The notes below the pieces were generated by a model that was given only the letters and a program-made list of their open reading frames with translations, made no database searches and had not been told where the DNA came from. From the NCBI RefSeq assembly GCF_020991005.1, contig NZ_JAJLLW010000001.1, forward strand, positions 310,001-374,000: a stretch of 64,000 bases of DNA. The letters are read 5' to 3'. This stretch comes from Halomonas sp. CUBES01 (GTDB lineage Bacteria > Pseudomonadota > Gammaproteobacteria > Pseudomonadales > Halomonadaceae). Position 1 is the first letter of the stretch. Each line of letters starts with the position of its first letter. A program made the position numbers and the translations under genes. Positions 43,188-64,000 of the stretch are shown here, in pieces.

Positions 43188-44887
43188 AAATCTCACGGCA
43201 AGCCTACGCCGATATGTACGGCCCCACGGTTGGCGACCGCGTGCGCCTGGGCGATACCGAGCTGTGGATCGAAGTCGAAAAAGACGCCACCCACTATGGT
43301 GATGAAGTGAAATTTGGCGGCGGCAAGGTCATCCGCGACGGCATGGGCCAAAGCCAGCGCGCCGACGACACCGTGATGGATACGGTCATCACCAATGCGC
43401 TGATCTTGGACTGGTGGGGCATCGTCAAGGCCGACGTGGGCATTCAAAACGGCCGCATTGCCGCGATTGGCAAAGCCGGTAACCCGGATACCCAGCCGGA
43501 TGTCGAGATCGTGATTGGCCCCGGCACCGAAATCATCTCCGGGGAAGGCAAGATTCTGACCGCTGGGGCGCTGGATGCCCATATTCATTTCATTTGCCCG
43601 CAGCTGGTGGAAGAAGCGCTGATGAGCGGTATTACCACCATGCTCGGCGGCGGAACGGGGCCGGCCACCGGCACCAACGCCACCACCTGTACCCCTGGCG
43701 CCTGGCATATCGGCAAAATGCTCCAGGCGGTGGACGATATGCCCATGAACATTGGCTTGCTGGGCAAGGGTAACGCCAGCCTGCCCGAGTCGCTGGAAGC
43801 CCAGCTGAATGCAGGTGCCATGGGCCTCAAACTGCACGAGGACTGGGGCACGACACCCGCCTCGATCAACAACTGCCTTAACGTGGCGGATGTTTACGAT
43901 GTTCAGGTGGCCATTCACACCGATACCCTGAACGAGTCGGGCTTTGTGGAAGACACCCTGGGGGCCTTTAAAGAACGCTGCATTCACACCTATCACACCG
44001 AGGGGGCAGGCGGCGGCCACGCGCCGGACATCCTTACCGCCTGCTCGAAAGCCTACGTGCTGCCGTCCTCCACCAACCCGACGCGGCCCTACACGGTCAA
44101 CACCATCGACGAACACCTCGATATGCTGATGGTGTGCCACCATCTGGACCCCAATATTCCCGAAGACGTGGCCTTCGCCGACTCGCGTATTCGCCGTGAA
44201 ACCATCGCCGCCGAGGATATCCTCCACGATCTGGGCGTGATCTCGATGATCGCCTCGGACTCCCAGGCCATGGGGCGGGTCGGTGAAGTGGTCTGCCGCA
44301 CTTGGCAAACCGCGCACAAGATGAAGGTGCAGCGCGGCCTGCTGCCGGAAGACGAGGGCCTGGGCGCCGATAATTTCCGCGCCAAGCGCTATATCGCCAA
44401 ATACACCATTAACCCGGCGATCACCCACGGTATCGCCCACGAAGTCGGCTCCATCGAAGTCGGAAAAATGGCGGATCTGGTGCTTTGGAAACCGGCGTTT
44501 TTCGGTACCAAACCGGCGATGATCATTAAGGGCGGCATGATTGCGGCCGCCCCCATGGGCGACCCCAATGCGTCGATTCCCACGCCACAGCCGGTGCATT
44601 ACCGTTACATGTTTGGTGCACTGGGCCGCACGGCCAGCCAGACCCGGCTCAGCTTTGTCAGCCAGGCAGCATTGGATGCGGGGATTAAAGAGACGCTGGG
44701 GCTGAATAGCGAGCTAGCGGCGTGCAAAAACGTACGCCAGGTGCGCAAGCAGGACATGAAGCTCAACGATGCCTGCCCGGATCTGACCGTCGACCCGCAA
44801 ACCTACGAAGTGCGCTGCGATGGCGAAATTTTGACCTGCGAGCCTGCCACCGAGCTACCGCTGGCCCAGCGGTATCACTTGTTTTGA
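43184..44887 (+). CDS. ureC: Urease alpha (catalytic) subunit
   Basis: This is the nickel metalloenzyme that hydrolyses urea to ammonia and carbamate, 567 residues. Ni ligands and active-site motifs are complete: [10 protein letters not shown], the carbamylated Lys in [12 protein letters not shown], His in [16 protein letters not shown] and [15 protein letters not shown], and the flap Cys/His in [16 protein letters not shown] with the catalytic His. It is intact, so the operon should be functional. A 155-nt structured gap separates it from ureE. Confidence 0.97.
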
Positions 44888-52171: not shown

Positions 52172-52597
52172 TCAACCAGTAAGTGCAGCACCAGCGGTTT
52201 CTAGTCCTCCCAAGTATTTACCTAAGAACACCTGGGCTGGGGTTCGGCATCCCAGTCGTTTTCTTGGTCTATCGTTCAGCTTATTGACCACCCTTGGTAG
52301 CTCTGTGTCAGACACGCTTCGAAAGTCAGTCGCTTTCTGGAAGTATTGGCGCATCAGGCTTGGCGGTCGCTTTGTCACTTTCCAGGTGTTGCGTCGGCGC
52401 TGATCACTTGCCGCTTGGGCCTGTTCGGGCGCATAACCACTGGCCATCCCGTTGCGCTTTATCTCGCGGCTAAGGGTGCTGCTATGAACGCCAATACTCT
52501 TAGCGATCTGTCGCTGACTAATGCCGGCCTCAAGACTTAATTCTATGAAGCCAGGGTCCATTGTTGGCGCGAAGCTGGATGTATGTGGCGGTTGCAC
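52172..52597 (-). pseudogene. Internally deleted IS30-family transposase
   Basis: The frame gives 141 residues against roughly 320-340 for an intact IS30 transposase. The N-terminal HTH (SLEAGISQRQIAKSIGVHSS, then TLSREIKRNG) joins directly to the C-terminal end (LMRQYFQKATDFRSVSD, then LNDRPRKRLGCRTPAQVF). The central DDE catalytic domain is missing, so it cannot transpose. It lies just after tRNA-Arg, at the entry to the catabolic operon. The 214 nt between it and the binding-protein gene show no gene or clear promoter. Confidence 0.8.
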
Positions 52598-52811
52598 AAT
52601 ATTAGTAAGAATAAAAACGTTCTGACTTGCTGTAGAGTTGGCAAGCGTTGTGTTTTTAGGAGATGTAAAACGAAGCGCATTAAAAAAACCAAATTGGTCA
52701 TTTCTTTTGCGCGGTCACGTTGTGCCTCAACAAAGCCGAGCAGTAAGCTCCTGACAAGCCTTACGAGTCTGTAAGCCAAAAACAATTAATAAAAACGCTA
52801 GGAGAAACAAA

Positions 52812-53750
52812 ATGTTCAATAAAACCGCCATTGCTGCATCGGTCACATTGATGTCGATTGCGACAGCGCACGCCGAAGGCCCTTATCGTATAGGTATTAC
52901 TCAAAACAACGTGGGTGTCGATAGTTATCAGACAACCTATGAAAGCGCGTTTGAAGCAGCGGCAGAGCGTGAAGGAAATGTGGATGTCGTGGTGCTGGAC
53001 GCCGGTGGCGATGTGGCTCGCCAGATCGGCCAAATGCAGGACCTTATCCAGCAGCGTGTCGACGCCATCATTATTTGGCCTACTAACGGTCAAGCGGTCA
53101 TCCCCGCGATTCGCCAAGCTCACAGTGCTGGCATTCCTGTTGTAGTGACCAACTCTAAAATCGCTGAGGCGGGCATGGAGTTTATCTCCGCCTTTTCTGG
53201 CCCGGATAACGTTCAGCAGGGTGTGTCCTCTGCTGAAATGATGTGCGATGCCCTCGGTGGCGAAGGCCAGATCGTTCAAATTGCTGGCCAGCCTGGGTAT
53301 ACCACGGCGATAGAGCGGGCGGCCGGTTTTGAAGATCGTCTGGCGGAGGTTTGCCCTGGAGTGGAGCTGTTGGAAACGCAGCCAGGCAACTGGAACCGCG
53401 AGCGTGCCCAGCGCGTCATGGAAGACTTCCTGACGAAATATGACCGTATCGATGGGGTCTATTCGGGGGATGACAACATGGGCGTTGGCGCACTCAACGC
53501 CGCGAAAGGCGCTGACCGTGCAGACGATGTTATTTTCATTGGCGCCACTAACTTCGCCGTTGGCTACGATGCCATTGAGCGTGGCGAGTACTACGGCTCT
53601 ATTTATCAGTCCCCTGTTGACGATGCAGAAGCCGCCCTGCAAACGGCCCTGGATGTATTGGCCGGTGAAGAGGTTCCTAAAATGAATTTCTTCGAAACCC
53701 CCAAAATCACGGCTGAAAACCTCAGCGAGTTCGACCGCCCCGTTTTTTAG
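52812..53750 (+). CDS. Ribose-type (Peripla_BP_4) ABC transporter binding protein
   Basis: This is a periplasmic binding protein of 312 residues with a signal peptide (about 1-22, ending AHAEG) and the sugar-binding fold of RbsB-like proteins: GITQNNVGVDSYQTTYESAF, VDAIIIWPTNGQAVIPAIRQ and DGVYSGDDNMGVGAL. The ligand need not be a sugar; operon content points to a compound degraded through hydroxyquinol. The ATG has TAGGAG upstream. A hairpin separates it from the permeases. Confidence 0.88.
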   Translation: MFNKTAIAASVTLMSIATAHAEGPYRIGITQNNVGVDSYQTTYESAFEAAAEREGNVDVVVLDAGGDVARQIGQMQDLIQQRVDAIIIWPTNGQAVIPAIRQAHSAGIPVVVTNSKIAEAGMEFISAFSGPDNVQQGVSSAEMMCDALGGEGQIVQIAGQPGYTTAIERAAGFEDRLAEVCPGVELLETQPGNWNRERAQRVMEDFLTKYDRIDGVYSGDDNMGVGALNAAKGADRADDVIFIGATNFAVGYDAIERGEYYGSIYQSPVDDAEAALQTALDVLAGEEVPKMNFFETPKITAENLSEFDRPVF

Positions 53751-53849
53751 GTGAAGCGTGCTGTCTGGCGTATGGCGCGTAAAGCGCCTGCGCCGAATGA
53801 CAGTATCAACCTGACGACAGGTTTCCTGCGCTGGGCGGCGCTGTAAGAG

Positions 53850-53876
53850 GCAATGGATAACCCGGTTATCCATTGC
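53850..53876 (+). other. Intercistronic hairpin after the binding-protein gene
   Basis: Thirteen-bp arms GCAATGGATAACC/GGTTATCCATTGC with a single central base lie in the 167-nt gap before the first permease. There is no T tract. It probably protects the upstream mRNA. Confidence 0.6.
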
Positions 53877-53917
53877 ACTCGGCAGTGCTTTCCAAAGTGA
53901 TTTTACAGGTGAATAGC

Positions 53918-54928
53918 ATGGCTTCTGCACAACAATCCAAATCAAGGATATCGACAGAAAGGCTCAGCAAGGCAAGCGTCATGAGCTTCCTCTCGGCTCA
54001 GGGAATTCTGATATTTTTTCTGATCGGCATGTTTGTTTTTTCGCTGTTCTCTGAGCAGTTTCTTTCTCAGTCGAACATTATGACGGTGGTTCGACAGGTC
54101 TCCATTATTGGCATCATTGCGGTTGGCGTAACGGTCGTCATTATCGGCGGGAATTTGGATCTTTCGGTGGGTTCGATGCTGTCATTCTCGACGGTGTTGG
54201 TGGTGGATCTGCACGATAAGATCGGCCCTACGAATGCCATTCTCATCATGTTCGCATTAACGCTAATGATTGGTGCGGTTAACGGCTTATTAATTGGCTT
54301 TTTGCGCCTTAATTCGCTCATTGTGACGCTCGCCATGCTGTCGGCCATACAAGGTTTTGTGCTGATTTACAGCGGTGGTCAAAACGTTGACATCGCCAAT
54401 CAAGAAGGTACCTGGTTTGCGTTCTTTGGACGAGGCTACCTAGGCGGCATTGCCGTTCCCATATTGCTCTTCGCGATGTTGGCCATTTTGGTTCAAGTCG
54501 TGATGTCTTTCACAGGGTATGGCCGCCGTATTTTTGCCGTCGGTGGTAACCCGATGGCGGCCGTTTATTCTGGCATTCGTAAAAACTGGTGCGTCTTTAG
54601 CACCTACCTGATTTCAGCCTTTTGTGTGGCCTGTGCAGCCCTTGTCCTTGGCTCGCGAGTGATGGGCTCGCAAAACAACGTAGGGCAGGGGTACGAGCTA
54701 CTGGTGTTGGCCGGCATCATTCTTGGCGGCACGAGCTTGTTAGGTGGCGCGGGCAGTATTTGGAAAACGGTGGTTGGGGTCTTGATCTTAGGGTTTATCC
54801 AAAATGGACTGCTCTTGATGGGCTACCCCTATTACATCCAGTGGATAGTGACCTGGGTAATCATCATCTTGGCGGTATGGCTGGATCTTGCCAATAAGCG
54901 TAAGCGCTTGCTGACAACCCACTCATAA
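53918..54928 (+). CDS. Ribose-type ABC transporter permease 1
   Basis: This is an RbsC-like permease of 336 residues from ATG 53918 with AGGTG upstream; an ATG at 53873 lies inside the preceding hairpin. It has about ten hydrophobic segments. The family blocks are VTVVIIGGNLDLSVGSMLSF near 70-90 and LAGIILGGTSLLGGAGSIW near 265. It pairs with a second, different permease, so the channel is probably heterodimeric. Confidence 0.9.
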   Translation: MASAQQSKSRISTERLSKASVMSFLSAQGILIFFLIGMFVFSLFSEQFLSQSNIMTVVRQVSIIGIIAVGVTVVIIGGNLDLSVGSMLSFSTVLVVDLHDKIGPTNAILIMFALTLMIGAVNGLLIGFLRLNSLIVTLAMLSAIQGFVLIYSGGQNVDIANQEGTWFAFFGRGYLGGIAVPILLFAMLAILVQVVMSFTGYGRRIFAVGGNPMAAVYSGIRKNWCVFSTYLISAFCVACAALVLGSRVMGSQNNVGQGYELLVLAGIILGGTSLLGGAGSIWKTVVGVLILGFIQNGLLLMGYPYYIQWIVTWVIIILAVWLDLANKRKRLLTTHS

Positions 54929-54943
54929 CGCGGAGGAGTACAC

Positions 54944-55903
54944 GTGATGTCTATTAAAGGTTTCTTCCGAGGTAAAGCGGTTATCCAGCCTATTTGGGTG
55001 TTCGTGATCGCCATCTTTATCTTCTTCAGCTTCATGTCAGAGTATTTTCTGTCGTGGGGGAATATCACCAATATTTTGGTTCAAACATCGACGATTGGCC
55101 TGATTGCACTTGGTATGACGCTGGTCATGATCAACGGCAACATTGATCTATCGGTGGGCGCAACGCTTGGGCTTGCCGCTTCTCTGGCGGTAGGTCTTCA
55201 AGAGTTCAGTATGACGTTGGCCATATTGGCCGCGCTTGGCTCTGGCATGTTGTTAGGGGCACTGAATGGCTTAATCGTTTGGAAAACAGGCGTGAACGCT
55301 TTCATTGTAACGCTTGGGGCGATGCTAGGGGTTCGCGGTTTAATCTTCCTCTACACCGGTGAGCAGTCGTTTTATGCCATGAACTTTGCGTTCTCTGATT
55401 TCGGCATGAGCACGGTAGGCCCCATGCCGACACTGGCGGTCATCTTCTTGGTTTGCACACTCATTATGCACTTGGTGCTGACGCGTACGGGGCACGGTCG
55501 CAATACCTTTGCGGTGGGGGGTAATCCGGAAGCCTCCATTGACGCAGGCATCCGTCTAGGCCGACACATGATGATCAACTTCATCATCGTAGGGTTTTTC
55601 GCGGCACTCGCGGGTGTTCTGCTCGCCAGCCAAATGGGTGCTGCTACACCTAATCTAGGCCGGGACTATGAGCTCTGGGTGATTACGGCAGTAGTGCTGG
55701 GCGGCACGAAATTAACCGGTGGTTACGGCAGCATTGTTGGCACATTAGGCGGCGTACTTGCCATCGGTATCCTGCGCAACGGCATGAACTTGATGCAGGT
55801 GCCCGCTTTTTACGTACTCGTTATTCTCGGCGCGATTCTCATCTCTGTTCTGATCATTGATAAGAAGCTTAATGCACCCTCGGCTAAGGAGGTGCGGATA
55901 TGA
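54944..55903 (+). CDS. Ribose-type ABC transporter permease 2
   Basis: This is the second RbsC-like permease, 319 residues, starting at GTG 54944 or the adjacent ATG 54947; GGAGGAG precedes both. It has the same family blocks (GMTLVMINGNIDLSVGATLG; VVLGGTKLTGGYGSIVG). Its stop overlaps the ATPase start as ATGA. Two separate permease genes occur in LsrCD- or YtfT-YjfF-like systems rather than in RbsABC. Confidence 0.9.
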   Translation: MMSIKGFFRGKAVIQPIWVFVIAIFIFFSFMSEYFLSWGNITNILVQTSTIGLIALGMTLVMINGNIDLSVGATLGLAASLAVGLQEFSMTLAILAALGSGMLLGALNGLIVWKTGVNAFIVTLGAMLGVRGLIFLYTGEQSFYAMNFAFSDFGMSTVGPMPTLAVIFLVCTLIMHLVLTRTGHGRNTFAVGGNPEASIDAGIRLGRHMMINFIIVGFFAALAGVLLASQMGAATPNLGRDYELWVITAVVLGGTKLTGGYGSIVGTLGGVLAIGILRNGMNLMQVPAFYVLVILGAILISVLIIDKKLNAPSAKEVRI

Positions 55904-57444
55904 ACGCCTCATCAACGCAATCACGTCAGCCAATCGATGCAGCACCCATCCTGGAACTTAAAGGCATCACGAAGCGATTCCCTGGTGTGGTAGCGCTCAA
56001 CAACGTTGATTTTGACGTTCGTCCCGGTGAGGTACATGCCTTGCTGGGTGAGAACGGGGCTGGCAAGTCGACACTGATGAAAGTATTGGCCGGTAAACAC
56101 CAGGCCAACGAAGGCAAGATTATTTTAGGCGGCCAGGAAATGGCCTTCGAGAATCCCAAGCATGCCAAGCGCGCTGGGGTCGTACTCATCCATCAGGAGC
56201 AGTCGCTGGTCTCTGAAATGACAGTCGCCGAAAACATCTTTCTCGGCAGCCTGCCCAGAAAGTCGTGCAATCGCGTGGATTGGCGAAAGCTGCGTGAGGA
56301 TACCAATAAGATTCTTGAGCGGCTCAAGTGCGGTTTTCAGCATGACGATGTAGTGGGCTCGCTGTCGATTGCCAAAAAACAGATGGTAGAAATTGGCAGA
56401 GCGCTTGCCTTTACGCCGCAGGTCGTCGTGTTTGACGAGCCCACGGCATCGCTCACCGACCACGAAAAGCCGGTGCTCTATGACGTGATCAATTCGTTAT
56501 GTGAGCAGGGGGTGGGCATTGTTTACATCTCCCATCGCATGGATGAGATTTTCCATTTGTCGCACCGCATTTCAGTGCTGCGAGACGGCGAGTACACCGG
56601 CACGGTCAACACTGCTGATACCCACGAAGACGAAATCACGCGGATGATGATCGGCCGCAGTCTAGCGCTTGATCATGCCAGCAAACCCATTGATTTCGGC
56701 GACAACATGCTGGAAGTGCGCAACCTGTCAGTGAAGCGTGTTTTTGAGGATGTCAGCTTTAACGTTCGCAAGGGCGAGATTGTCGGCATGTACGGGCTGG
56801 TAGGCGCGGGGCGTTCAGAAGTAGCAGAAACCATCTTTGGCTTACGCACGCCATCGAAGGGTGACGTATTGCTGGATGGCGAGGTGGTGAGCTTTCGTAA
56901 CTCCCACGATGCGGTGGTGAGCGGTGTTGCGTTAGTACCAGAAGACCGCAAGGACCAGGGCCTCATTCTGGGAATGAACTGTCGTGACAACATGACATTG
57001 GCAAGCCTTTCTAGCGTGTCGTCCTTAGGTTTTATGACCAGTGCGAAAGAGCGCGAAGTCTACGACAAGTATCACCAAGCCATGAAAATCAAAACCCCCA
57101 GCTGGCGCCAAAAGGTCGGCAATTTAAGCGGCGGTAATCAGCAGAAAATCGTCATCGGCAAGTGGCTGCATACCCAGCCTAAATTGCTCATCCTCGATGA
57201 GCCAACGCGGGGTATTGATGTCGGTTCAAAATCTGAAATCCATACCCTCGTCAAAGACTTAGCCAAATCCGGCTACGCCGTGTTGGTGATCTCCTCAGAG
57301 ATGCCCGAAGTGCTGGGCCTGAGTAACCGCATTATCGCGATGTACGACGGCCGCGTCACTGCGGAGTTTGATGGTGACAACGTCAGTGAGGACGCGCTGG
57401 TGCAAGCCATTACCGGTATGGGAAAGCAGGCGCAGGCGAGCTAG
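55900..57444 (+). CDS. Ribose-type ABC transporter ATPase (tandem domains)
   Basis: This is a double ABC ATPase of 514 residues. The first domain has GENGAGKSTLMKVLAGKH and SIAKKQMVEIGRAL. The second has a degenerate P loop, GLVGAGRSEVAETIFGL, as usual in RbsA/MglA, and an intact LSGGNQQKIVIGKWL with LLILDEPTRGIDVGSK. It energises the two permeases upstream. Confidence 0.92.
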   Translation: MNASSTQSRQPIDAAPILELKGITKRFPGVVALNNVDFDVRPGEVHALLGENGAGKSTLMKVLAGKHQANEGKIILGGQEMAFENPKHAKRAGVVLIHQEQSLVSEMTVAENIFLGSLPRKSCNRVDWRKLREDTNKILERLKCGFQHDDVVGSLSIAKKQMVEIGRALAFTPQVVVFDEPTASLTDHEKPVLYDVINSLCEQGVGIVYISHRMDEIFHLSHRISVLRDGEYTGTVNTADTHEDEITRMMIGRSLALDHASKPIDFGDNMLEVRNLSVKRVFEDVSFNVRKGEIVGMYGLVGAGRSEVAETIFGLRTPSKGDVLLDGEVVSFRNSHDAVVSGVALVPEDRKDQGLILGMNCRDNMTLASLSSVSSLGFMTSAKEREVYDKYHQAMKIKTPSWRQKVGNLSGGNQQKIVIGKWLHTQPKLLILDEPTRGIDVGSKSEIHTLVKDLAKSGYAVLVISSEMPEVLGLSNRIIAMYDGRVTAEFDGDNVSEDALVQAITGMGKQAQAS

Positions 57445-57527
57445 CTCACCTGTTGCGACTGGTGTGCTCGCTAGAAGATAGAGGGTAGCGAGCACTCAGC
57501 CCACTTCAAACGTATAAGGAATGTTTC

Positions 57528-58607
57528 ATGCAACCTTTTGTTTATGATGGCCTGCCATCCCGCGTGGTATTTGGCCAAGGTACCCTGGCGCAGCTGAGAC
57601 AAGAGCTTGAACATCTCGGTTGTTCACGCGCCCTGGTGTTAGCCACACCTCAGCAACAAGAGCAGGCAAGCCGCGTATTAGAACTGCTGGGCGATAAGGG
57701 CGTGGGCGTTTACGCGGATGCCGTCATGCATACGCCGGTCGAGGTGACCAAGCGTGCCTTACAGGTGGTCAAAGAGCTAAATGTAGACTGTACGGTGGCC
57801 ATCGGTGGCGGATCAACGATTGGCTTGGGTAAAGCCATTGCCTTACGTACTGGCTTACCTCAGATCGCGATACCCACCACCTACGCGGGCTCGGAAATGA
57901 CGCCGATCCTGGGTGAAACGAGCGACGGTATCAAGACCACCCAGCGCACCCTGGATGTGCTGCCGGAAACGGTTATTTATGACGTTGACCTGACCCTAAC
58001 GCTGCCTGCGGTGATGTCAGGTACCAGCGGGATTAACGCGATTGCCCATGCGGTAGAGGCGCTTTATGCCCGCGACTGCAATCCGGTGATTGCGCTGATG
58101 GCAGAGGAGGGTATTGCGGCGCTGGCGCGAAGCCTGCCGGTGATTGCCAATAATCCTACCAACGTTGAAGCACGCTCTGATGCGCTCTACGGCGCTTGGC
58201 TGTGCGGCACTTGTCTGGGGTCGGTGGGCATGTCGCTGCATCACAAGCTGTGCCACACCCTGGGCGGCTCTTTTAACCTTCCCCATGCGGAAACGCACAC
58301 CATTGTGTTGCCTTATGCGCTGGCGTATAACGCGCCCGCAGTGACGGAGGCGATGGCGCGTATTGGGCGTGCGCTGGGCTGTGACGATGCGGCGGCAGGT
58401 CTTTACGACTTGGGGCGTGCCGTCGGCGCCCCAAGCGCACTCTCCGAGCTAGGCTTTAGCGTAGACGATGTAGAGCGTGCCACTGAGATTGCTACCCGCA
58501 ACCCTTACTGGAACCCACGCGATGTGGAAGCCAAGGGGATCCACCGCTTGCTAAGCGACGCGCAGTCGGGGAAACGACCGCAGGCGGACAGTGGAGGTGA
58601 CCAATGA
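57528..58607 (+). CDS. Maleylacetate reductase
   Basis: This enzyme reduces maleylacetate to 3-oxoadipate with NAD(P)H, linking ring cleavage products to the TCA cycle. The protein has 359 residues of the iron-alcohol-dehydrogenase superfamily. The start FVYDGLPSRVVFGQGTL, the nucleotide motif VAIGGGSTIGLGKAIALRTG, PTTYAGSEMTPILGE and HHKLCHTLGGSFNLPHA identify the MacA/TcbF/GraC subgroup. Overlap with the next gene is ATGA. Its natural partner, hydroxyquinol dioxygenase, is three genes downstream. Confidence 0.9.
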   Translation: MQPFVYDGLPSRVVFGQGTLAQLRQELEHLGCSRALVLATPQQQEQASRVLELLGDKGVGVYADAVMHTPVEVTKRALQVVKELNVDCTVAIGGGSTIGLGKAIALRTGLPQIAIPTTYAGSEMTPILGETSDGIKTTQRTLDVLPETVIYDVDLTLTLPAVMSGTSGINAIAHAVEALYARDCNPVIALMAEEGIAALARSLPVIANNPTNVEARSDALYGAWLCGTCLGSVGMSLHHKLCHTLGGSFNLPHAETHTIVLPYALAYNAPAVTEAMARIGRALGCDDAAAGLYDLGRAVGAPSALSELGFSVDDVERATEIATRNPYWNPRDVEAKGIHRLLSDAQSGKRPQADSGGDQ

Positions 58608-59989
58608 GCACGCTGTTTGTTAATGCCACGGTTGTCACCATGGACTCGCAGTTGGGCGAACTGAGCGATGGCCAGGTACTGGTCGAGGGTGATCGAATCG
58701 TCGCCGTGGGGCATGACCTCACCGATCATCCCAAGGCACACGCAGCCGAGGTGATGGACTGCGGCGGCGGTATCCTAATTCCCGGGTTGGTGAACGCCCA
58801 TATGCATACCTGGCAGACCGGCCTACGCGGCGTTGCCGCCAACTGGACGCTGCTGGAGTATTTCCGCCATGTCCACCGTGGCCTTGCGGCGCTGTTTACG
58901 CCGCAGGATATCTACATTGCCACCCGGATGGGCGCGATTAACCAGCTGAATTGCGGTACCACAACGTTAGGTGATTGGTGCCATAACAACCCGACTCCCG
59001 AGCACACCGACGCTGCGGTGAAAGGGCTTAAGGAATCAGGTGTTCGGGCGCTGTTTCTGCATGGCTCGCCTAAGCCTGACCCTAAACCCGGCCAGCCGCA
59101 CTTTAGTAAAATTCCCCATCCCCGCCATGAAATAGAGCGCTTGTTGAACGGCGAGCTGGCAAATCCAGAAGGGCTCGTCACCTTAGGCATGGCCATTCTT
59201 GGCCCTCACTACTCAACCCTGGATGTGACGCTGCAGGACTTTGCGCTAGCCAAGGAGTTTGGCTTAGTTGCGTCAATGCACCAAGGCGGCGGTGAGGCCG
59301 TGGCCCCCGGTGCCTGGGACGAGGTGGAAGCGCGTGGCCTGCTGGGCCCCGATATCAATATTGTGCATGGTCAAAGTTTGGACGATGGCCAAATGTCCCG
59401 GTTCTGCGCCAGCGGCGTGACGTTCTCCATTGCACCTGAAAACGAAATGACCCAGGGACACGGTTTCCCTGTCACCGGGCTCGTTCGTCAACACGGCGGC
59501 GTGGTGTCTTTAGGCGTGGATCTTGAATCGGTGCTCTCTGGAGACATGTTCAGCGTCGCCCGGGCGGCGCTGGGTATGCAGCGCTCCCTGGATAACGACG
59601 CCTCGCGCCGTGAGCAGGGAAAGATCCCCGATACCTCCACCATTACCACTCGTGAGGCGCTAGGGTGGATCACTCTCGATGGGGCAAAAGCACTGGGTAT
59701 TGATGATCGTATTGGTAGCCTCACGCCGGGTAAGCAGGCTGACCTGGTGCTGCTCGATAGCAACCAGCTCAATATGCAGCCGGTGAACGACCCTGTCTCT
59801 ACAGTGGTCATGCAAACCAGCCTTGCCAACGTCGACAGTGTAATGGTGGCCGGGCAGTTCAAAAAACGTGGCGGCCGTCTGTTAATGAAGACTCAGCAGG
59901 GCATCGCCGAGCTGGCCAAGTCTGGCCACCGCATTCACGCCGAACTGCTGGCGCGTGAAGCGCAATCAACACAGGAGGTGACCCCATGA
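58604..59989 (+). CDS. ATZ/TRZ-type amidohydrolase (aminohydrolase)
   Basis: This is a metal-dependent hydrolase of 461 residues. Metal ligands are visible as HMH in LVNAHMHTWQTGLRG near 65, His in ASMHQGGGEAVAP and NIVHGQSLDDG, and Asp in VSLGVDLESVLSGDMFS. The fold resembles hydroxydechloroatrazine aminohydrolase (AtzB), SsnA and TrzN, which remove amino or chloro groups from rings or purine-like compounds. Here it probably deaminates the imported substrate or an intermediate. The exact substrate cannot be read. It is coupled by 4-nt overlaps on both sides. Confidence 0.85.
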   Translation: MSTLFVNATVVTMDSQLGELSDGQVLVEGDRIVAVGHDLTDHPKAHAAEVMDCGGGILIPGLVNAHMHTWQTGLRGVAANWTLLEYFRHVHRGLAALFTPQDIYIATRMGAINQLNCGTTTLGDWCHNNPTPEHTDAAVKGLKESGVRALFLHGSPKPDPKPGQPHFSKIPHPRHEIERLLNGELANPEGLVTLGMAILGPHYSTLDVTLQDFALAKEFGLVASMHQGGGEAVAPGAWDEVEARGLLGPDINIVHGQSLDDGQMSRFCASGVTFSIAPENEMTQGHGFPVTGLVRQHGGVVSLGVDLESVLSGDMFSVARAALGMQRSLDNDASRREQGKIPDTSTITTREALGWITLDGAKALGIDDRIGSLTPGKQADLVLLDSNQLNMQPVNDPVSTVVMQTSLANVDSVMVAGQFKKRGGRLLMKTQQGIAELAKSGHRIHAELLAREAQSTQEVTP

Positions 59990-60933
59990 AAACCGCTTCT
60001 ACAACGTCTTCAACAACCCCCCAAGTGGCGTGGGTAGGCTTGGGTAAATTGGGGTTGCCGATGGCTGCTCGTATTATCCAATCTGGAACCCCAGTTCAAG
60101 GCTTTGACCTGTCGGCAGAGCGCCTTGCTCTCGCTGCAGAGGTCGGAGTGACGCCTCATCAAACACTGGCAGATGCCGTGGCCGATTGCGACTTGGTGTT
60201 TGTCTCCATCCCTGATGACCGCGCATTGATCAGTCTGTGCCTTGAGACTGGCGAGCTGATTCGTCACATGATGAACGGCAGTATCTTAATTGAGACAAGC
60301 ACGGTGAGTGTGGAAGCCTCTGAGCGAGTGGCCGAGGCGGCAAAGGCTCACGGTGTGGTCTATCTGCGTAGCCCGGTATCCGGTAACCCCGTCGCGGCAG
60401 AAGCGGGCACGCTGTCCGCGATGGTTTCCGGCCCACGCGATGCGCTGGAAAAAGCCAAGCCCGTGTTTGCAGCGTTTACCAAAGCGCAGTACTGGCTGGG
60501 CGATGAAGATCAGGCTCGCGTAGCCAAACTGGCCATTAACCTGATGATTGCCGTCAGTGCCGGGATGATGAGTGAAGCGCTGACGCTGGCGCGTAAAGGC
60601 AACATTGAATGGGACGCTATGCTGGAGCTGATCGCTGACAGCGCGGTGGGTTCCCCCATGGTGAAGTACAAGGTGCCCCCCCTGTTAGCGCGCGATTTTA
60701 CCTCGACGTTTTCCGCCTCGCAGATGGCCAAAGATCTTGACTTGATCCTCGACTGCGCCCACGGCTCTGGGGTATCGACCCCGTTAGCAGCTCAAATGCG
60801 CGAAGCCTATACCGCCCTTATCGCGACCGGGCATGGCAACGATGACTATATCGCCACCGTACATCATACCGAGCGCCTGTCAGGGTTAAGCGAGCCATCG
60901 CCAATCACGCAGGGAGGGCACACACATGCGTAA
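59986..60933 (+). CDS. 3-hydroxyisobutyrate-dehydrogenase-family oxidoreductase
   Basis: This is a beta-hydroxyacid dehydrogenase of 315 residues. The Rossmann motif is VAWVGLGKLGLPMAARI near 14-30, the substrate loop is SPVSGNPVAAEAGTLSAMVSG, and the catalytic Lys lies in RVAKLAINLMIAVSAGMMSEA. Members act on 3-hydroxyisobutyrate, tartronate semialdehyde and related acids; some reduce imines. Its place inside an aromatic-type operon is unexplained. It overlaps its neighbours by 4 and 8 nt. Confidence 0.85.
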   Translation: MKTASTTSSTTPQVAWVGLGKLGLPMAARIIQSGTPVQGFDLSAERLALAAEVGVTPHQTLADAVADCDLVFVSIPDDRALISLCLETGELIRHMMNGSILIETSTVSVEASERVAEAAKAHGVVYLRSPVSGNPVAAEAGTLSAMVSGPRDALEKAKPVFAAFTKAQYWLGDEDQARVAKLAINLMIAVSAGMMSEALTLARKGNIEWDAMLELIADSAVGSPMVKYKVPPLLARDFTSTFSASQMAKDLDLILDCAHGSGVSTPLAAQMREAYTALIATGHGNDDYIATVHHTERLSGLSEPSPITQGGHTHA

Positions 60934-61789
60934 TCTCACCACCGACAATATAACCGCCGCCGTGATGGATGAGTTTTCACGCTGTGAGGATGAGCGGCTG
61001 AAAACGCTACTGAATGGCCTGGTAAAACACCTGCACGCTTACCTGCGCGAGGTGAAGCCCACCGAGAAAGAGTGGACTCAGGCGATTGAGTTCCTCACCC
61101 GAGCCGGGCAAATGTGCGACGACGAACGCCAGGAGTTTATCCTGCTGTCAGATACCCTGGGCGTCACCATGCTGGTGGATGCAATTAATCACTCAAGCAG
61201 TAATCCTGAGGTTACCGACAGCACGGTGTTGGGGCCTTTTTACGTCGCGGACCCTCCCCAAGCGAATCAAGGTGATGCCATTAACTGGGGTGTGGATGGT
61301 GAGCCGTTATTTATCGAGGGCAACGTGCATGATGCTAAGGGCAAGCCCTTGGCAAATGTCACGATCGACGTATGGCAATCGGACAGCGAAGGCTTTTACG
61401 ACGTACAGAAGCCCGAGCTTGAAAGCGCGACGCTGCGCGCACGCTTTCATACCGACAATCAGGGGCGATACGCTTTCTGGACGGTGGTTCCTTCTCCTTA
61501 TCCCATTCCGACGGATGGGCCAGTCGGCAAAATGCTCGAAATCACCGGACGTCATCCTTATCGCCCCGCCCATGTGCATTTCATGCTGATGGCGCCGGGG
61601 TACGAAACCCTGGTCACTCAAATCTTCGCGGAAGACGACCCCTACCTCGACTCTGATGCGGTATTTGGCGTTAAAGATTCCCTGGTGAAGGAATTTGTTC
61701 AGCAACCCGCAGGAAAAGCGCCCGACGGCCGGCAGATGGACGCCCCTTACCGCTATTTTCAATACGACTTCGGCTTAAAGACGGCCTGA
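60926..61789 (+). CDS. Hydroxyquinol 1,2-dioxygenase (intradiol)
   Basis: This is a non-haem Fe(III) dioxygenase of 287 residues that would cleave hydroxyquinol to maleylacetate. The N-terminal helical dimerisation domain (about 1-100) is followed by TDSTVLGPFYVADPP. The iron ligands sit in GFYDVQ (Tyr), RHPYRPAHVHFMLMAPG (Tyr, His, His). The hydroxyquinol subgroup is favoured over catechol dioxygenase by its pattern and by maleylacetate reductase in the same operon, but chlorocatechol is not excluded. Confidence 0.9.
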   Translation: MRNLTTDNITAAVMDEFSRCEDERLKTLLNGLVKHLHAYLREVKPTEKEWTQAIEFLTRAGQMCDDERQEFILLSDTLGVTMLVDAINHSSSNPEVTDSTVLGPFYVADPPQANQGDAINWGVDGEPLFIEGNVHDAKGKPLANVTIDVWQSDSEGFYDVQKPELESATLRARFHTDNQGRYAFWTVVPSPYPIPTDGPVGKMLEITGRHPYRPAHVHFMLMAPGYETLVTQIFAEDDPYLDSDAVFGVKDSLVKEFVQQPAGKAPDGRQMDAPYRYFQYDFGLKTA

Positions 61790-61848
61790 ACGATTCACCC
61801 TGAACGTCTGGCTCCTACTGAGCTGGTTAAACCGAAAGAGGAAACGAC

Positions 61849-62439
61849 ATGAGCAAGATTGACCAAGCCGCAATTGCAGCGCTGTTCACTGAAGCACGTA
61901 CCCATAACGTTTGGCAGGACCGTGAGGTGAGTGAAGAAACCCTGCGTGAACTCTACGAGGTAATGCATTTCGGACCCACCTCCATGAACTGCCAGCCAGC
62001 GCGGATTATTTTTCTGACCACCGATGAGGCAAAAGCGCGCTTGAAGCCTGCTCTGTTGCCAGGCAATCAGGAAAAAACCATGAAGGCGCCGGTGGTCGCG
62101 GTGCTTGGCTTTGATACGGAGTTTTACGAGCATCTGCCGCGCATGTTTGCTCATAACAAAGATGCCAAATCGCTGTTCGAGGGCAAGCCGGATTTTATTC
62201 ACTCCACGGCGTTCCGCAATAGCTCCATTCAAGGTGGCTATCTGATTTTAGCGGCCCGCGCGCTTGGCTTGGATGCTGGCCCCATGTCGGGCTTCAACAA
62301 TGCCGCGGTGGATGAAGAGTTCTTCCCGGATGGTAAAGTGAAGAGCAACTTCCTGTGTAACTTGGGCTATGGCGATGCCAGCGCCTTGTTCCCACGTGGC
62401 GACCGTTTCTCCTTCGAGGAAGTGTGCAAAGTGCTGTAA
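61849..62439 (+). CDS. RutE-like nitroreductase-family oxidoreductase
   Basis: This is an FMN-dependent enzyme of 196 residues. The pattern FGPTSMNCQPARIIFLTT, KAPVVAVLGFDTEFYEHLPR and NSSIQGGYLILAARALGLDA matches the RutE/HadB subgroup, which reduces malonic semialdehyde in pyrimidine breakdown. With no other rut gene here, it may reduce a quinone, nitro or semialdehyde intermediate of this operon. The ATG has GAGGAAAC upstream. It is the last gene before a strong terminator. Confidence 0.85.
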   Translation: MSKIDQAAIAALFTEARTHNVWQDREVSEETLRELYEVMHFGPTSMNCQPARIIFLTTDEAKARLKPALLPGNQEKTMKAPVVAVLGFDTEFYEHLPRMFAHNKDAKSLFEGKPDFIHSTAFRNSSIQGGYLILAARALGLDAGPMSGFNNAAVDEEFFPDGKVKSNFLCNLGYGDASALFPRGDRFSFEEVCKVL

Positions 62440-62554: not shown

Positions 62555-63292
62555 ATGGCGTTTGATTGGGTGTTTGTGGCACTGATGATAGTGGCCGTTT
62601 TACTGACGGGGATTTCCAAATCGGGGTTTGCGGGCGGGGTGGGGGTGGTTGCTGTACCGCTGATCTCGCTAAAGGCAAGCCCGACCTTTGCAGTGGCGGT
62701 GATGCTCCCGCTGCTAATTGTGATGGACGTGTTCAGCCTAAAAGCGTGGTGGCGACAGCGGGTGGATCGTTTGTTGTGGCTAATGTTTCCGCCTGCGATA
62801 TTAGGCGTTGCGGTGGGCTACTTCACTTATGGCTGGTTTAATGAAGCGCTGTTGACACTATTGCTGGGGATTTTTTCCGTACTGTTTGGCCTTTGGGGTC
62901 TGTTTAAGCCGCTGCGCGGCCGACTGCTGCCCACTTGGGTGGGGCGTCTGTGTGGAGGAATCGCCGGGTTTACCAGCTTTATTGCCCATGCAGGCGGCCC
63001 ACCGTTGAACTTTTACCTGCTGCAGTGCCAACTCACCAAGCAGCAATTTTTAGGTACGGCGGTGGTGTTTCTCGCGATTACCAACTTGGTAAAGCTGGTG
63101 CCCTATACGCTGCTTGGCCTGGTGACGTTCGATAATCTCACCATCGCGCTGCTGCTGATGCCGGTGGCATGGCTGGGCATCCAGTTAGGGTTGATCATTC
63201 AGCGGCGGGTGGATGGCGAGCTGTTTTTCCGGGTCATTCTTTGCCTACTCATTTTGTTAGGTATTCGGCTGATTATCGATGGAGTAAGTTAA
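62555..63292 (+). CDS. TauE/SafE-family (TSUP) membrane exporter
   Basis: This is a 245-residue membrane protein with about eight hydrophobic segments and the two internal half motifs of the family: TGISKSGFAGGVGVVAVPLI near 18-37 and GFTSFIAHAGGPPLNFYLLQ near 144-163. Relatives move sulfite, sulfoacetate or other organic anions. It is beyond the operon terminator with its own ribosome site (AAGGGGTG), so it may be separately expressed, perhaps to export an acidic intermediate. Confidence 0.88.
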   Translation: MAFDWVFVALMIVAVLLTGISKSGFAGGVGVVAVPLISLKASPTFAVAVMLPLLIVMDVFSLKAWWRQRVDRLLWLMFPPAILGVAVGYFTYGWFNEALLTLLLGIFSVLFGLWGLFKPLRGRLLPTWVGRLCGGIAGFTSFIAHAGGPPLNFYLLQCQLTKQQFLGTAVVFLAITNLVKLVPYTLLGLVTFDNLTIALLLMPVAWLGIQLGLIIQRRVDGELFFRVILCLLILLGIRLIIDGVS

Positions 63293-63385: not shown

Positions 63386-64000
63386 ATGAAAAAAGAGGCC
63401 AGTGGACTGACCCTGTTTGACGATACGCATCCAGAAGGGCCTTACGACAAGCTATCGCAAACGCCCGTTTCCAAGATATCGAACACCGAGTTAGCGCGCT
63501 TCATTGAGTTCATTGAGAAGTTTGAAAACGAGACCGAATCAACACTCTCGATGTCGCTGGGGTATCGTGAGATGCGGATGTTGCTGCACGTGATGCGCAA
63601 CCATCTGGCGGGCCGGTTAACTACGCCTACCTCGCTGGCGGATGCCTCAGGGCTGACGTATGGCACCGCTAAGCGCGGGATTGAAAGCATTATGCAGCGA
63701 GGCCTTCTCATTTCGCGCCCACGCACAAAGACTGGAAAAACCGTCTCGCTGCACCCTTCCCCACAGATGATAGAAGAGTGGGAAAGCTACGCGGAGCGCA
63801 TTAAGGGCCTGCTGGGCCCGCTGTTTGGGATCGACCCCGCCTCGGAATCTGGCAGCAAGATATTTTTAGGTATGTCAGCGTCTCAGCGGGTGATCTCGAC
63901 ACCCGCTGTGCTTTCCGCGCGGCTGGAGCTGAAAGGGGGCTTACGTGTGCTGGCGCATGCGGACCCTACGTTTATGGCCATGCATAATTTAAAACGGCAG
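63386..64000 (+). CDS. Regulator with N-terminal winged helix and a binding-protein-like domain (partial)
   Basis: The reading frame runs from ATG 63386 (GGGAG 5 nt upstream) off the right edge, 205 codons so far with no stop. The N-terminal part (about 35-140) has a MarR/GntR-like winged helix: RFIEFIEKFENETESTLS, TTPTSLADASGLTYGTAKRG, IMQRGLLISRPRT. From about 165 a periplasmic-binding-protein-like domain starts (KIFLGMSASQRVISTPAVLS). It lacks a signal peptide, so it is cytoplasmic. It is a likely ligand-responsive regulator of the operon to its left. Confidence 0.75.
   Translation, partial: MKKEASGLTLFDDTHPEGPYDKLSQTPVSKISNTELARFIEFIEKFENETESTLSMSLGYREMRMLLHVMRNHLAGRLTTPTSLADASGLTYGTAKRGIESIMQRGLLISRPRTKTGKTVSLHPSPQMIEEWESYAERIKGLLGPLFGIDPASESGSKIFLGMSASQRVISTPAVLSARLELKGGLRVLAHADPTFMAMHNLKRQ

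Follow-up and report, generated by a model that had tools for sequence, protein, structure and literature searches.

As a rule, the substrates that feed aromatic catabolism have an aromatic ring from the outset, and oxygenases bring them into it. The described hydroxyquinol clusters for resorcinol and nitrophenol (which we take to be those named gra, rol, pnp and tft) share an intradiol (hydroxyquinol-type) dioxygenase (HQDO) and a maleylacetate reductase (MAR) with an operon of Halomonas sp. CUBES01 located in a window of 64,000 nucleotides (C10:310001-374000 of the 3.6-Mb assembly, C10 being the contig name in genome coordinates). In contrast to those clusters, this operon has no flavin hydroxylase and carries instead a CUT2 importer, an enzyme of the amidohydrolase fold (AMH) and a HIBADH-family dehydrogenase (HIB). 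It is a real, conserved and uncharacterised catabolic gene set with a known lower pathway and an upper pathway that is probably of the polyol type. Our leading reading, to which we give a little less than even weight, is that it serves to break down an alicyclic compound of polyol character, with a cyclitol or deoxy-cyclitol as the likeliest candidate.

In Corynebacterium glutamicum, the inositol importer gene iolT2 shares an operon with rhcM2D2, which encode MAR and dioxygenase, according to one report (PMC7764795), and oxiC-cg3390-oxiD-oxiE encode inositol dehydrogenases and a putative isomerase, according to another (PMC9603128); judging from the locus numbers, the two groups adjoin. The arrangement resembles ours in joining MAR and dioxygenase to an importer beside inositol dehydrogenases with no hydroxylase named in the operon, and differs in having a secondary transporter instead of a CUT2 system and in naming no amidohydrolase. 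The passages of both reports considered here propose no route from a cyclitol to hydroxyquinol. The myo-inositol (iol) catabolism follows the same logic as that proposed here, namely a polyol importer, a dehydrogenase and then dehydration, whereas no iolE is present in our cluster.

The closest solved relatives of HQDO were the hydroxyquinol 1,2-dioxygenase 1tmx (289 bits) and PnpC (282 bits), as against 132 bits for the best catechol 1,2-dioxygenase. Residues Y158, Y192, H216 and H218 lined up with the iron-ligand positions of 1tmx (4/4), where the two Tyr and two His presumably bind Fe(III). MAR matched solved enzymes over its full length (3jzd, 449 bits; the maleylacetate reductases 3w5s, 421 bits, and 3hl0, 418 bits). 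Because both proteins match solved hydroxyquinol dioxygenases and maleylacetate reductases, the operon very probably encodes a lower pathway from hydroxyquinol through maleylacetate to 3-oxoadipate, in agreement with the original prediction, which had been made from the sequence of the window alone. The predicted products of pcaF (674 bits, above cut-off) and of the CoA-transferase genes at C10:203262-206063 can consume the 3-oxoadipate in the same genome. Another consumer is perhaps the BKACE near the operon, of a beta-keto acid cleavage enzyme family that we take to act on 3-oxoadipate.

A search for the gene set in other genomes, which had been proposed together with the original prediction, found it conserved. 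An AMH-alignment scan of 84,980 species genomes yielded 464 loci, and all counts out of 80 refer to the best 80 of them; presence was scored by tblastn within about 10 kb, with gene calls in high-GC loci taken from a home-made codon model. All nine genes were found in 30/30 Halomonadaceae/Marinobacterium loci and in none of the other 50. In 29 of those 30 loci the TauE, regulator and SDR genes lay alongside, and the remaining one (L023) stops at a contig end. HQDO lay near AMH in 58 of the 80 loci, HIB in 53, MAR in 51 and the CUT2 ATPase in 43, and MAR, HQDO and HIB occurred together in 44, in loci that had been found by AMH alone. With nine genes intact in 30/30 loci and these three together in 44/80, the association is, on gene content, more than chance. 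The linked-gene labels needed 13 changes on the AMH tree as compared with 36.8 in shuffles, a figure to which near-copies contribute. AMH was present in 8 of 58 same-genus and same-order genomes (our own included), all eight within the genus, and the nearest named loci were those of Vreelandella lutescens and of a Halomonas metagenome-assembled genome (97% AMH identity).

An alphaproteobacterial type was found in Bradyrhizobium, Tardiphaga, Xanthobacter, Azorhizobium and Aquabacter, where 12 loci had importer and HQDO and 10 of the 12 had MAR and HIB too. It shows the order MAR-AMH-HIB-HQDO, a GlcD-like FAD oxidase and a different CUT2 transporter, frequently together with a YciI protein. LacI-type regulators were present in six Tardiphaga/Bradyrhizobium loci, one scanned and the others assigned by clustering. 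A Skermanella plasmid bore a cluster of importer, SDR, ThuA protein, AMH, HIB, HQDO, RutE, MAR and BKACE genes, in which the position of MAR differs. BKACE lay near the cluster in nine of the 80 AMH loci and likewise in Skermanella, and a CoA-transferase pair in seven (six of them outside Halomonadaceae), with a thiolase in some; the predicted 3-oxoadipate module is thus one that varies by lineage. Related clusters in Cupriavidus necator N-1 (pBB2, L100) and in L045 contained an AMP-binding CoA ligase and a citryl-CoA-lyase-like protein, which suggests that the pathway ends differently there.

Domain and family scans revealed no flavin hydroxylase among the operon proteins, as had been noted originally, and none was detected in the 43 AMH loci with a CUT2 ATPase, as compared with 5 of the 37 without one, detection being limited to the reference sequences used; the original idea that an importer takes the place of the hydroxylase holds in the same comparison. 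The Fisher values for these locus comparisons (0.039 and 0.018) ignore relatedness and lend weak support only. Among 60 Pseudomonadota HQDO loci, 14 had genes of the flavin-hydroxylase type, 11 had at least one of AMH, TIM-barrel isomerase and CUT2 ATPase, no locus combined the two kinds and 35 had neither; L159 and L218, which lie on the same contig, overlap and share the importer match of L218, and several loci are cut by contig ends, where absence is weak. On the HQDO tree (87 rows, with context labels from our own tblastn references, 36 of them 'neither' and 4 'both') the AMH/TIM/CUT2 context must, counting well-supported branches, have been gained or lost 11 times or more. Judged from these contexts, the hydroxylase has been replaced on more than one occasion.

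The same pairing was seen on plasmids, where 13 HQDO contexts comprised a CUT2-kind importer in three by annotation and in one by tblastn, a TIM-barrel/enolase in two, a flavin hydroxylase in five and neither in two; neither importer/TIM nor flavin hydroxylase was seen in the Microvirga and Rhizobium RCAM05350 contexts. No flavin hydroxylase was annotated with the CUT2-like importers on the plasmids of Rhodococcus opacus (HQDO, MAR, a xylose-isomerase-like TIM barrel and SDRs), Rhizobium WL3 (HQDO, MAR, HIB, Gfo/Idh, YciI, Dabb and a relative of the regulator) and Paraburkholderia PGU16 (HQDO and MAR). The survey locus L201 joined a CUT2-like importer to dioxygenase, reductase and TIM-barrel or dehydrogenase genes, and in the unannotated record of R. 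jostii RHA1 tblastn gave ATPase, MAR and TIM matches near HQDO. On two Sinorhizobium plasmids, genes for TIM-barrel and enolase-superfamily proteins and GMC/FAD oxidoreductases accompanied HQDO and MAR. In one of the two, the conjugative plasmid pRM41A of Sinorhizobium meliloti Rm41 (L125), the cluster held a type II 3-dehydroquinate dehydratase as well as the enolase-superfamily protein and the TIM-barrel isomerase.

The CUT2 ABC importer was complete, with a type-I binding protein, two BPD_transp_2 permeases and one two-domain ATPase, so that the transporter class stood in the 'ribose-type uptake' first proposed, but ribose itself did not. The binding protein fell below the RbsB equivalog cut-off (115.9 against 337 bits). 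When it was aligned to 2ioy (which we take to be a ribose-binding protein, as we do the ribose contact residues and their E. coli numbering), five of the seven contact positions differed, D89, R90, R141, N190 and D215 being replaced by S115, K116, I167, D220 and T246, and two were alike (F164 as W194 and Q235 as Q266). The five replacements were fixed or nearly so in 29 Halomonas-type binding proteins (116 being Arg once and 167 being M, I or L); the alphaproteobacterial binding protein retained Asp-Arg and was without R141 and, in a pairwise alignment, without D215. By its contact positions the protein is not a ribose binder, and since these contacts are replaced its ligand is probably polyol-like, with hydroxyls fewer or otherwise placed than in ribose.

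In the CUT2 ATPase tree, the Halomonas-type and alphaproteobacterial-type proteins fell into two distinct clades, and those of the alphaproteobacterial type joined a further, neighbouring CUT2 set (support 100/99, to be taken with caution in view of long branches); the ATPase of Rhizobium WL3, fused to a permease, had a very long branch. A polyol-class substrate is suggested because two separate CUT2 clades adjoin the same enzymes and CUT2-like importers occur with HQDO/MAR in Rhodococcus opacus, Rhizobium WL3, Paraburkholderia PGU16 and L201, and also because of the LacI-type regulators and of a regulator candidate with a solute-binding domain. From this comparative context, import of a polyol-like solute by the CUT2 system seems somewhat more likely than not.

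AMH keeps the TIM-barrel fold and the HxH, H, D metal ligands (H66, H68, H226, H255 and D306), which it shares with the cytosine-deaminase/atrazine chlorohydrolase branch (7ww2, AtzA, TrzN and adenosine-type deaminases). In contrast to that branch, the Glu position of the HxxE motif is Gly (G229 here) in 89 of 90 aligned rows, which include the window's own sequence twice, and Asp in the remaining one; the Glu is present in the three solved relatives whose printed alignment spans the site. The enzyme also has invariant residues of its own (D124, H127, E279, E281 and H286, with E308 in 89/90 rows), and the NCBI library label of its subfamily, PRK08204, is 'hypothetical protein'. A 'hydrolase of the ring-deaminating type', as AMH had first been called, therefore describes its fold and metal ligands but not its motif, and the replacement of the Glu by Gly removed the amino- or nitrogen-substituted ring from its place as leading substrate. 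That proposal, in which AMH would hydrolytically remove the amine of an aminocyclitol, a vinylogous amide or an amino-aromatic, now appears unlikely; no transaminase, ammonia lyase or amidase was annotated in the Skermanella and Bosea clusters, the other loci having been scanned in part.

The structural matches of AMH include 6sj0/6sj1, which we take to be NatAM. This benzoxazole-forming enzyme of the amidohydrolase family is reported to dehydrate an intermediate (PMC7204872); NatAM is thus like AMH in family, shows that amidohydrolases can dehydrate, and differs in being biosynthetic, in its substrate and in its sequence (22-24% identity). In the reading that we favour, an elimination or hydrolysis step is probably the contribution of the AMH-fold enzyme.

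We also think it unlikely that the substrate is an already hydroxylated aromatic or a conjugate, from which AMH would cleave a lactone, ester or conjugate, the missing hydroxyl being supplied by an unlinked enzyme. The five CUT2-less loci with a flavin hydroxylase, the acid-type transporters beside AMH in some loci and a binding-protein pocket with W194 and fewer charged ribose contacts would all agree with it, but it leaves unexplained the repeated pairing with CUT2 importers, LacI regulators and polyol-type dehydrogenases, and the scan of ten window proteins turned up neither an esterase nor a glycosidase domain.

In the cyclitol route that we favour, the CUT2 transporter would import a cyclitol-like compound, and the HIBADH-family enzyme (in other lineages an SDR, GMC or GlcD-like oxidase) would oxidise a ring hydroxyl to a ketone. 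The AMH-fold metalloenzyme would then drive an elimination or hydrolysis by which the ring aromatises to hydroxyquinol, and the RutE-like protein would keep this product reduced. HQDO would open the ring to 3-hydroxymuconate/maleylacetate, MAR would form 3-oxoadipate, and BKACE, or a CoA transferase with a thiolase, would finish it. The aromatisation of a cyclitol and the order of these upper steps are put forward with reserve. By formula, deoxyinosose (C6H10O5) less two H2O equals hydroxyquinol (C6H6O3), and inosose (C6H10O6) less two H2O equals tetrahydroxybenzene (C6H6O4); according to a chemical review (PMC11467972), base treatment of an inosose protected by benzyl groups causes the loss of two alcohols and yields the 1,2,3,5-tetrahydroxybenzene skeleton. 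A cyclitol-like compound had been among the substrates first guessed, and comparative evidence now backs it.

In clusters of Mesorhizobium and Kaistia (L041, L042, L044, L053 and, in part, L085), AMH and an HQDO of more remote kinship were joined by Gfo/Idh, YciI, an FAA hydrolase and genes of malonate metabolism, as determined by a scan of L041 and by clustering for the others; no MAR was found in them. The best family of the FAA hydrolase was 2,4-didehydro-3-deoxy-L-rhamnonate hydrolase, below cut-off, and the malonate genes encode a malonyl-CoA synthase (above cut-off) and a protein with a malonyl-CoA decarboxylase domain. An FAA hydrolase together with malonate genes fits the cleavage of a tetrahydroxybenzene ring to malonate and pyruvate, and a possible sequence, on chemical grounds, would be intradiol cleavage of 1,2,3,5-tetrahydroxybenzene to 2,4-dioxoadipate, which the FAA hydrolase would split into these two products. 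More speculatively, there may be a repeatedly assembled bacterial route in which cyclitols are imported, oxidised and dehydrated to polyhydroxybenzenes and degraded as aromatics; in our operon an AMH without the deaminase Glu would aromatise the ring, and Mesorhizobium and Kaistia would work one hydroxyl higher, through 1,2,3,5-tetrahydroxybenzene to malonate and pyruvate.

Several observations weigh against the cyclitol reading. With most ribose contacts lost, the ligand of the binding protein may not be very sugar-like, and the motif kept by HIB is one that we take usually to bind a carboxylate. None of the 80 AMH loci gave a match to four TIM-barrel isomerase references, so AMH would have to take on an unproven aromatising role. 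The genome has a single iolE match above cut-off, at C10:503668, some 130 kb past the end of the window, and with an ordinary iolE there plain myo-inositol needs no second route. The five AMH loci with a flavin hydroxylase belong to Burkholderiales and one gammaproteobacterium, and the acid-type transporters that adjoin AMH are of the TctC and LIV kinds. Among 11 of 13 records of AMH on plasmids (H3 and H11 left out), an annotated intradiol dioxygenase was nearby in four (H1, H2, H5 and H10) and in none of the other seven. The five plasmid contexts with a hydroxylase in or near the HQDO cluster were those of two Streptomyces, Citricoccus, Shinella and Burkholderia glumae, the last of which also holds a TIM-barrel protein. 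Finally, IhtR, the repressor of the iolT2-rhcM2D2 operon, answers trihydroxybenzene and not inositol, according to PMC7764795.

It is quite improbable that the operon merely places a CUT2 sugar importer next to a hydroxyquinol module, the two being inherited together with no joint pathway. Modules do recombine between lineages, as seen in the MAR position in Skermanella and in the differing transporters, but the overlapping reading frames, the 30 intact sets out of 30 and the repeated pairing of importer, HQDO and MAR in separate lineages speak against such a patchwork. A sulfonated ring, for which, by analogy with 4-sulfocatechol degradation, an intradiol dioxygenase and a lactone hydrolase of the amidohydrolase superfamily would yield sulfite and maleylacetate and TauE would export the sulfite, has very little to recommend it, because although the TauE/SafE gene is kept in 29 of the 80 AMH loci and TauE also occurs in the Burkholderiales locus L051 and, near HQDO/MAR, in Sinorhizobium americanum, the dioxygenase is of the hydroxyquinol and not of the protocatechuate type, the window proteins that were scanned lacked a muconate cycloisomerase domain, alphaproteobacterial loci gave no TauE match at 45% identity, and the known 4-sulfomuconolactone hydrolase belongs to another amidohydrolase branch.

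HIB carries NAD_binding_2 and NAD_binding_11 domains, an SGN motif at 132-134, K181 and N185, and fell below the 3-hydroxyisobutyrate dehydrogenase equivalog cut-off (158.6 against 291.6 bits). The RutE-like protein passed the RutE malonic semialdehyde reductase model (296 bits, cut-off 152); by analogy, it may possibly act as a hydroxybenzoquinone reductase, quinone reductases being the enzymes that keep hydroxyquinol reduced in other hydroxyquinol pathways. The regulator candidate (L002:15387-17177) combines a helical, HTH-like N-terminus, seen in a low-confidence model of a relative (mean pLDDT 54.6), with an extracellular-type solute-binding domain. Its homologues were present in 30 of the 80 AMH loci, in Skermanella (58%) and in Rhizobium WL3 (32%).

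Scans of the window for open reading frames, domains and family models showed nine plus-strand genes filling 52812-62439 (Table 1). The gene set, coordinates and single strand of the original prediction agreed with these scans; its count of ten did not, and it names nine genes itself. Most genes had been said to overlap by 4-8 nt: overlaps of this size do exist (4, 4, 4 and 8 nt), but at only four of the eight junctions, the other four being gaps of 15, 59, 83 and 122-176 nt. The cluster extends past 62439 with the TauE/SafE gene and the regulator candidate, followed further on by the SDR (minus strand) and BKACE (plus strand) genes. The promoter scan gave three promoter-like sites, all on the minus strand, against 7.4 expected, and the terminator scan 15 terminator-like sites against 13.3 expected; both were uninformative. 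Directly upstream of the binding-protein gene, transposase remnants with an HTH_38 domain, presumably IS30-like, lie at 52172-52785 on the minus strand. Elsewhere in the window, a 601-codon open frame at 43553-44545 had a strong Amidohydro_1 match (263 bits) and is possibly urease alpha.

Table 1. Genes of the operon and the two genes that follow it, in window positions
Feature	Position	Strand	Basis
CUT2-type periplasmic binding protein	52812..53750	+	Peripla_BP_4
CUT2 permease 1	53927..54928 (alternative start TTG at 53873)	+	BPD_transp_2
CUT2 permease 2	54944..55903	+	BPD_transp_2
CUT2 two-domain ATPase	55900..57444	+	AraG/RbsA-like
MAR	57528..58607	+	Fe-ADH family; solved relatives 3jzd, 3w5s, 3hl0
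AMH-fold enzyme, ATZ/TRZ-type	58604..59989	+	PRK08204-type
HIBADH/beta-hydroxyacid dehydrogenase-family enzyme	59986..60933	+	Family domains, motif
Hydroxyquinol 1,2-dioxygenase-type intradiol dioxygenase	60926..61789	+	Solved relatives, HQDO tree
RutE-like nitroreductase-family protein	61849..62439	+	NF003768; IstO is the best solved relative
TauE/SafE-family exporter (predicted)	62555..63292	+	Domain match; kept with the cluster
Regulator candidate, 596 aa, SBP_bac_1 domain	63386..64000, runs beyond window end	+	Domain scan, homologues

Searches of an open-access library, which leaves out most subscription journals, gave no description of the gene set, and none of the titles listed names a link between cyclitols and hydroxyquinol. 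If our reading is true, an oxygenase-free route from an alicyclic polyol to hydroxyquinol would join sugar-alcohol and aromatic catabolism, and the AMH subfamily PRK08204 would gain a function. It would also explain why hydroxyquinol genes of C. glutamicum share an operon with its inositol importer, and would provide enzymes for making polyhydroxybenzenes from sugars.

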